Part shown: positions 41,598 through 43,223 of the stretch, piece after piece
Layout of the letters: every line of letters starts with the position of its first letter
Numbering within the stretch: the stretch's first letter is position 1
Source: Herpetosiphonaceae bacterium
GTDB taxonomy: Bacteria > Chloroflexota > Chloroflexia > Chloroflexales > Kallotenuaceae
Direction: 5' to 3'
Assembly (NCBI GenBank): GCA_013821605.1
Contig: JACDGP010000034.1
Coordinates: 1 to 45,921 of the forward strand
DNA length: 45,921 bases
Notes under the pieces: model-generated
The model's input: the letters and a program-made list of their open reading frames with translations, nothing else
The model's database searches: none
Told to the model about the DNA's origin: nothing
Made by a program: the position numbers and the translations under genes

Positions 41598-41651
41598 TTT
41601 ACATTTCTGTTACACCTAACCCTTGTTTCAGGAAGGGCGCATGTGTACCAT
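41598..41651 (+). promoter_or_regulatory. Promoter of the TadE-like gene with an upstream 17-bp motif
   Basis: TTTACA-N3-CTGTTACA at 41598-41614 is followed, 8 bases later, by -35 TTGTTT (41623-41628), a 17-base spacer and -10 TACCAT (41646-41651). The same motif, gap and spacer occur upstream of the Flp-like pilin gene (42904-42957). Confidence 0.6.
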
Positions 41652-41738
41652 AAATGGTGGAGAGTTGGAGGCAGCTTGACGCGGCATGGAACTTGATGCA
41701 TGGGATTTAACGTGCCGCATTGACTGAAAGGGCAGGCA

Positions 41739-42101
41739 ATGTTAAAGCGGAGATGGCGTCAGCAGCAAGGCAGTGCCGTAATCGAGTTTACGGGCGCAGC
41801 TTCTATGCTGGTGCTGACCTTGATCCTTATTCTGCAAGGCGGCTTGTTAATGACGACACAGATCGCCGCTAGTACTGCTGCACGTGAGGGTGCACGCGCA
41901 GCGGTTACAGTACCACCGGGTAATATTCAGAGCGCAGTTACGCGTGCTGCCGCTGGCTATCAAACACAATCTTTGCAAGTTAGGCGTAACGGCGATAGTG
42001 TGACGGTGCAAGTGTATCTTCAGCCACCGGTGGTCTTCGGCATGTTTGCCAACTGGAACTGGCCGATACATGGCGCCACGACGATGCGCCAGGAACGGTA
42101 G
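41739..42101 (+). CDS. TadE-like pseudopilin
   Basis: A 120-residue protein with a short basic N-terminus, the GSAVIEFTGAASMLVLTLILILQGG segment (TadE processing region and membrane helix, Glu at the fifth position after Gly-Ser) and a small extracytoplasmic domain. TadE-like pseudopilins assemble with Flp pilins in Tad type IVc pili. The downstream TadG-like gene follows by eight bases. The ATG is preceded by AGGGCAGGCA, a weak site. No prepilin peptidase or secretion ATPase is in the window. Confidence 0.85.
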   Translation: MLKRRWRQQQGSAVIEFTGAASMLVLTLILILQGGLLMTTQIAASTAAREGARAAVTVPPGNIQSAVTRAAAGYQTQSLQVRRNGDSVTVQVYLQPPVVFGMFANWNWPIHGATTMRQER

Positions 42102-42109
42102 GGTACCAT

Positions 42110-42757
42110 ATGATGCTTCATAAACGTGTTACCCTGCTAGGGGATGAGTCGGGCAGCATAGCATTGGTCTCGACGGCAATGATCATCATGTTTACCCTGC
42201 TGCTGCTACCGGCTGTATGGAATCTGGGAGCGATCAAAGCTGTCCGTCGCCAAAGCCAGAATGGTAGTGATGCGGCAGCACTTTCAGGAGCTGAAACGCT
42301 GGCGCAGCGCTTGAATGCTGCCGGGGCTGACTGGTGGGGTTGTATTCCTCCCGAGACACGCCAAACGATCGTGGGACGCTATGTTGGGATGGTTGTAGCG
42401 CCGCTGGCTGCCAGTAACGCGGGCCAGGGAGATGCTGCAGGCTACTTCTCCAGTAATGGAGGTGCACTCAATGCATATGGGCAGCGCCTACGCTATGGCC
42501 CACATGCGCTGGTTGTTAGTGGTGTGCCCGTTCCACCGATCGTTGATGACGTGAAAGGCGATGTGTCGATGAAAGGCACGATCATCGCATCCATTTACCA
42601 TATAGACGGCGCGCCGATTCGCTCGTCTGCCAGTGGCGAGGCCTATCTAGATGACGTACAAAGTTGGACGACCCCCTGTCCCGCCAATCCGATCCATGCC
42701 ATTGCTTTTCACTACCGCTTCCGCTGGAAAGTGCGCCTCGTACCAACCGGCTATTAG
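42110..42757 (+). CDS. TadG/Tad-domain pilus assembly-like protein
   Basis: A 215-residue protein with the N-terminal DESGSIALVSTAMIIMFTLLLLPAVWNLG helix (the Tad processing pattern, GSIA...) and then RRQSQNGSDAAALSGAETLAQRL, a hallmark of Tad/TadG proteins. It probably forms the tip or minor pseudopilin of the pilus. It follows the TadE-like gene by eight bases in the same operon. TadG proteins usually have a longer C-terminal von Willebrand-like domain that is absent here. Confidence 0.82.
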   Translation: MMLHKRVTLLGDESGSIALVSTAMIIMFTLLLLPAVWNLGAIKAVRRQSQNGSDAAALSGAETLAQRLNAAGADWWGCIPPETRQTIVGRYVGMVVAPLAASNAGQGDAAGYFSSNGGALNAYGQRLRYGPHALVVSGVPVPPIVDDVKGDVSMKGTIIASIYHIDGAPIRSSASGEAYLDDVQSWTTPCPANPIHAIAFHYRFRWKVRLVPTGY

Positions 42758-42820
42758 TCGCACCTGGCTCTGCATGCCACGTTGTGCTAGCTAGTTTCTC
42801 CCTTCACTACAGTTCGTTCG

Positions 42821-42847
42821 AGTCCGCTTCGGCGGACTTTCGTTTTA
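42821..42847 (+). terminator. Rho-independent terminator after the TadE/TadG pair
   Basis: AGTCCGC-TTCG-GCGGACT forms a 7-bp stem capped by a UUCG tetraloop, followed by TTTCGTTTT. It lies 64 bases after the TadG-like stop. Confidence 0.85.
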
Positions 42848-42889
42848 AGCGGAATACTTGGTTTATACCTGCTATAAGTTGTAACGGAA

Positions 42890-42957
42890 TGTTTACAAAA
42901 AGGTTTACAAAACTGTTACAAAGGCCTCTTGAAATGCTCGTTCCTCGGCTGTATGCT
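42890..42957 (+). promoter_or_regulatory. Promoter of the Flp-like pilin gene with activator-type direct repeats
   Basis: Three short repeats (TGTTTACAAAA, GGTTTACAAAA, CTGTTACAAAG) occur at 42890-42923, about one DNA turn apart. The last two make up the 17-bp motif TTTACA-N3-CTGTTACA at 42904-42920. Eight bases later come -35 TTGAAA (42929-42934), a 17-base spacer and -10 TATGCT (42952-42957). The layout suits an activator bound next to the -35 box. Confidence 0.65.
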
Positions 42958-43010
42958 ACCTTCATCGTAATCGCACGGTGTAAACCGTAACACACAAGAG
43001 GATGACAACC

Positions 43011-43223
43011 ATGAACAAGTTGAACGACCTGACGATCTACGCAGCAGCCCGCACGCAAGCCTTCATTACCGTCGCTCAGAACGAAGAGGGCTCGGAAGTC
43101 GCTCAAGCCGCCGGTGTGGCACTGTTGAGTGCCGCGATCATTGGTGCGATGTTGGGCTTACGTGGGAACTTCTCGAGTGCTGTGACCGGTGCCTTCAATA
43201 AGCTCATCGGCAGCTTGAACTAA
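43011..43223 (+). CDS. Flp-like pilin (major pilin candidate)
   Basis: A 70-residue protein. A 30-residue leader (NKLNDLTIYAAARTQAFITVAQ) precedes NEEGSEVAQAAGVALLSAAIIGAMLGL, which is the Flp-type cleavage region (EEG/SE...) and transmembrane helix. It ends in a short soluble tail. It is monocistronic, has its own strong promoter and terminator, and so is likely the abundant pilin subunit for the TadE/TadG-like partners. Compared with classic Flp pilins it lacks the Glu-Tyr pair after the cleavage site. ATG at 43011 follows AGAGGATG; the ORF opens three codons earlier at 43002. Confidence 0.7.
   Translation: MNKLNDLTIYAAARTQAFITVAQNEEGSEVAQAAGVALLSAAIIGAMLGLRGNFSSAVTGAFNKLIGSLN

Follow-up and report, generated by a model that had tools for sequence, protein, structure and literature searches.

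A 17-bp motif that recurs upstream of pilin-type genes in the genome studied here is, judging from sequence comparisons, very probably the operator of a regulon dedicated to one Tad pilus system; it would be bound by a response regulator encoded within the Tad locus of contig C112, and binding would activate transcription. The window, that is, the whole stretch of 45,921 nucleotides that was analysed, is contig C120 of this Herpetosiphonaceae genome (5.88 Mb in 259 contigs, 99.6% complete) and carries two copies of the motif among the following features:

41598..41614, forward strand: operator 1, a direct repeat (TTTACA-N5-GTTACA, period 11 bp) that precedes the TadE/TadG operon
41623..41628, forward strand: -35-like box TTGTTT, 8 bp past operator 1
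41646..41651, forward strand: -10-like box TACCAT of the operator 1 promoter, after a 17-bp spacer
41739..42101, forward strand: TadE minor pilin, 120 aa (PF07811, E 4.9e-7)
42110..42757, forward strand: TadG/TadE-like protein, 215 aa (PF13400 Tad, E 1.9e-6)
42892..42897, forward strand: additional TTTACA half-site, 12 bp ahead of the first one in operator 2
42904..42920, forward strand: operator 2, a direct repeat of the form TTTACA-N5-GTTACA that precedes the Flp-like pilin gene
42929..42934, forward strand: -35-like box TTGAAA, 8 bp past operator 2
42952..42957, forward strand: -10-like box TATGCT of the operator 2 promoter, after a 17-bp spacer
43011..43223, forward strand: Flp-like pilin, 70 aa (73 aa with a start at 43002)

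The initial annotation of this DNA had described the two copies as TTTACA-N3-CTGTTACA, and re-reading of the window bears this out: all 14 fixed bases are the same at 41598-41614 and 42904-42920, and the distances of 8 and 17 bp that it gave are exact at both promoters, with the boxes as it had named them. The additional TTTACAAAA that it reported one turn upstream of the pilin motif is indeed present at 42892, but the next half-site is 12 bp away and not 11. Nor is an upstream half-site peculiar to this pilin, as had been supposed, since the paralogous pilin of C112 has TTTACC at the same place; at the other C112 pilin, GTTGCA stands 11 bp upstream. What the initial annotation overlooked is that the motif is an 11-bp direct repeat of the OmpR/PhoB type; the likely regulator, which sits on another contig, was outside its view. 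The operator consists of two TTACA-type half-sites with an 11-bp period ([GT]TTACA-N5-[GT]TTACA in relatives), which corresponds to the operator format of the OmpR/PhoB family. The 70-aa pilin has no Flp_Fap (PF04964) match at E<=1 and no NCBIfam match, and we call it Flp-like from its size, its hydrophobic helix, its context, and its relatives.

Across the genome, TTTACA-N3-CTGTTACA has four exact matches against about 0.011 expected from base composition, which excludes chance, and five matches when one mismatch is allowed (the four exact ones plus one). The copies outside the window (C112:18788, C112:19210, and C194:3507) each stand upstream of a pilin gene or of a gene for a 345-aa Flp-headed protein. 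In this genome, searching with the window pilin retrieved six genes that are Flp-like or Flp-headed, and the site precedes all six, with two mismatches within the 17 bp at those on C97 and C31. Seven promoters are thus marked, those of these six genes and that of the TadE operon, and all seven keep the layout 8 bp - TTGNNN - 17 bp - TANNNT around weak core promoters (3-5 of 6 matches at -35 and 3-4 of 6 at -10). The complete 54-bp signature, searched with up to three mismatches, has eight matches in the genome, namely the seven promoters and one unrelated position, against none in a reversed control; the latter (C85:21653, three mismatches) has an unrelated gene downstream and was regarded as a chance match. 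A scan for random scatter found none: all matches with 0-1 mismatch, and all promoter-like ones with 0-2, precede a pilin-like gene or the TadE operon. The signature also flags Flp-like genes missed by the Pfam and NCBIfam models. No promoter of the second Tad locus of the genome (C95) bears a site, the sites being associated exclusively with one of the two Tad systems. The divergent tadA/cpaB promoter of C112 also lacks a site, so that in this genome only pilin-type subunits seem to belong to the regulon. To the earlier question whether sites precede the remaining tad genes, the answer is no at tadA/cpaB here and, in related genomes, yes for TadB/C and the prepilin peptidase; the regulator gene has a site there too.

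The Tad genes of C112 encode TadA, two T2SSF proteins, CpaB, two CpaE-like proteins, a prepilin peptidase, and two pilins, and the Tad/Flp components matched comprise PF07811, PF13400, PF00437, two PF00482, PF16976, AAA_31, and PF01478. Embedded in this locus, in the order cpaB-cpaE-cpaE-RR-HK-prepilin peptidase, are the candidate regulator, at L021:5231-5944, and, following it, a HAMP-HisKA-HATPase kinase. The regulator has the features of the OmpR/PhoB family, with a receiver (PF00072, E 9.9e-27), a winged helix (Trans_reg_C, PF00486, E 1.3e-27), a phospho-acceptor Asp, and a conserved Lys; D16, D59, and K116 are invariant across five members of its clade. It falls under the cut-off of all 25 best-scoring NCBIfam named models and scores 213 bits with the PhoB model (cut-off 296.2), 224 with the MtrA model (cut-off 300), and 150 with the Rhodobacter-type CtrA model RespRegCtrARhodob (cut-off 350).

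We surveyed 82 genomes of the order Chloroflexales, with a regulator tree of 38 proteins. Seven of them (G000, the genome studied here, and G005, G010, G059, G060, G069, and G073) have a member of the regulator clade, whose support is 100/99. A close ortholog of the C112 regulator (72-74% identical) was found only in G005 among 40 relatives; as in G000, two CpaE-type genes come before it, and the full promoter signature is present there at the pilin ortholog and at a Flp-headed operon. Most regulator matches of 47-52% identity in relatives represent, by context and tree, a different paralog outside Tad loci. A search for related loci with the 70-aa window pilin retrieved none because this protein is too short and too divergent. 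TadE, Tad, and pilin genes surround the regulator in the single-contig genome G010, which has sites upstream of the pilin and of further cluster genes. G060 has sites upstream of tandem pilins, of the regulator gene, of TadB/C, and of the prepilin peptidase, the latter two back to back, and G073 upstream of Flp-like pilins, TadB/C, and a Flp-headed protein. The regulator gene itself is preceded by a site in at least G060 and G059, which suggests that the regulator may control its own gene in these genomes. No histidine kinase was seen next to the regulator in G060 or G010. Genes for Ser/Thr protein kinases occur together with the regulator or bear the site at L204 (confirmed by Pfam), L170:18407-19324, and L171:3511-6208; those of G069 were called by eye, together with a phosphatase-like ORF. 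Several long Flp-headed proteins per genome, of about 340-450 aa, combine a Flp-like pilin helix with a long C-terminal part (L022:3592-4629, L061 on C97, L063 on C31, L211, and L131:5648-6673), and they have no confident Pfam match where tested.

The promoter geometry recurs among these relatives. At the loci of the regulator clade, where repeats were fetched without using the geometry, TANNNT lies 31 or 32 bp past 14 of 21 repeats and no other distance recurs often; the -35 box after the site is often poor or absent in the other genomes. Order-wide, KTTACA-N5-KTTACA-N31-TANNNT has 58 matches against one in the reversed control. After removal of 15 DUF4212-type sites by manual sorting, at least two Tad-type sites occur in six of the seven genomes with the regulator clade versus five of the 75 others (Fisher p = 8.7e-6, a value that is only indicative since the genomes are related and the site types were sorted manually). 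A similar site upstream of a pilin occurs in G055 (71% complete), where no clade member was detected. In G022, where the regulator was likewise not detected, a Tad-type site (L215:975) lies beside an apparently decayed operon. Relatives of the regulator outside Chloroflexales showed isolated repeats only, and no Tad genes were apparent in the six loci mapped.

Could a different regulator read the site? The genome has many OmpR-type regulators (14 matches at 1e-40) that could share a half-site, and binding by another member of the family, such as PhoB or a paralog linked to DUF4212, would make the pili follow a general nutrient signal. The nearest other clade, about 50% identical, has a member beside the gene of a DUF4212 protein (PF13937, E 2.9e-32), and in many Chloroflexales a conserved TTTACAGAAACTTTACA repeat lies 31 bp upstream of the -10 box of the DUF4212 gene (L186, L190, L191, L195, L198, and L221 in other genomes of the order), with the form TTTACA-N5-TTTACA and the same spacing as at the Tad sites. 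Half-site and geometry resemble both this site and the PHO box, and at one pstS gene a degenerate repeat lies 31 bp upstream of a -10-like TACCAT. Nevertheless, we consider this reading unlikely: neither pstS promoter has a site with two mismatches or fewer, the DUF4212 site has its own consensus, the genomes with several sites are mostly those with the Tad-linked clade, and in G060 and G059 it is the Tad-linked regulator gene that bears the site. The DUF4212-linked site looks like a second dedicated regulon, and the fact that sister clades each have a TTACA-type tandem site strengthens the assignment of the Tad operator to the C112 regulator; it also suggests a way of assigning operators to paralogous response regulators. 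In G061 (L175:7973-12229) a similar site and a DUF4212 gene are found just downstream of the regulator of the sister clade. Tandem 11-bp repeats of GTTACA/TTTACA followed by GTGATG- or GTTACG-type units (L135-L139 in G013; L140:7954- and 14494- in G002) have the -10 box at the same distance as the Tad sites; they stand upstream of other genes, so they were not counted as Tad sites, and they may belong to a third regulon with this format.

With the C112 regulator as the preferred reader of the site, the C112 histidine kinase would phosphorylate it, and the phosphorylated protein would bind the two half-sites as a head-to-tail dimer at about -60 to -44, just upstream of the weak -35 box. From there the dimer would recruit RNA polymerase, and all the pilin-like genes and the TadE/TadG operon would be switched on together. 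The initial annotation had proposed a dedicated activator; the genome scan substantiates a dedicated regulon, whereas activation is suggested by the position of the sites and the weakness of the core promoters. That position alone leaves the sign of regulation unproven, and in Caulobacter CtrA sites upstream repress pilA (PMC11264516). Repression of the pilin promoters is nonetheless improbable here, as the site lies upstream of the -35 box and not over the core promoter, and the core promoters are weak, with a -35 often poor or absent in other genomes.

A specialised sigma factor reading the site in place of an activator is a very remote prospect. The 191-aa sigma-like ORF adjoining the C112 pilins (L021:10587-11162), possibly an ECF-type factor, is a candidate for this role, but no such ORF stands out at the site-bearing loci of G060 and G010, the conserved blocks cover 54 bp and their third element is a sigma-70-like -10 box, and the half-site format is that of winged-helix dimers. 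Save for one duplicated pair, identity between the promoters drops to near background once the motif is left aside, and as they are mostly unrelated the motif has been preserved by selection and is no relic of duplication. The exceptional pair, the pilin genes at 43011-43223 of the window and at 18912-19121 of C112 (G000), lies on different contigs and encodes pilins 99% identical, with related promoters, which suggests a recent duplication. Although this pair has flanking promoter sequence in common, it is hardly credible that the shared sites in general are relics of promoters duplicated along with pilin genes, with no selected operator, since TadE and Flp-headed promoters show mostly 9-45% identity beyond the motif, -35, and -10, and the occurrence of the same layout in other families of the order contradicts it.

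The Tad pilus is the main candidate that has been put forward as the driver of surface motility in Chloroflexales (PMC7332563). The literature searched contained no description of a regulator or operator for Chloroflexota Tad pili, and the control of surface pili in this phylum appears undescribed. A candidate regulator and a base-exact operator make the motility proposal testable in a culturable relative, since G010 carries both regulator and sites. It is possible, although not probable, that throughout Chloroflexales a self-contained two-component switch governs only an accessory Tad system (pilins, TadE/G, TadB/C, prepilin peptidase, long Flp-headed proteins, and the regulator) and that the second Tad system stands outside it. 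If true, this switch could be what makes these filamentous bacteria use their pili to move over surfaces or to aggregate.

Precedents for two-component control of Tad loci are CtrA at pilA, a Pectobacterium pair, and PprAB. In Pseudomonas aeruginosa, PprA-PprB is a two-component control tied to the tad locus and the Flp pilus; PprB has a DNA-binding domain of the NarL/FixJ type and hence a site format differing from the operator described here. Among the closest parallels is CtrA of Caulobacter crescentus, a response regulator that acts at a Tad pilin promoter through an 11-bp-period direct repeat (TTAA-N7-TTAA) with several half-sites (PMC11264516). However, CtrA acts globally, on roughly 100 targets, and its main site overlaps the -35 box, whereas the C112 regulator sits inside the Tad locus, its sites lie upstream of the -35 box, and its half-site is TTACA. 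In Pectobacterium, ECA0785-ECA0786 likewise consist of an OmpR-type regulator and a kinase adjacent to the flp/tad cluster, and the accessible part of that report describes lower flp, rcpA, rcpB, and tadA expression in the regulator mutant and, unlike here, gives no operator (PMC3767616); the system is enterobacterial and we do not claim orthology. In its architecture the operator resembles those of PhoB in E. coli, whose PHO box is made of two 11-nt direct repeat units (PMC4415409), and of PhoP in Mycobacterium tuberculosis, which recognises 7-bp repeats spaced 4 bp apart (PMC4832192), both being 11-bp-period tandem repeats bound head-to-tail by winged-helix regulators. It differs from them in the half-site sequence and in its targets, which are Tad genes and not phosphate genes. 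Given the precedents of CtrA at pilA and of the Pectobacterium OmpR-type pair, the present system is a new regulon of an already known type; what is new, and well supported, is its own regulator clade, its operator sequence, and its fixed promoter geometry.
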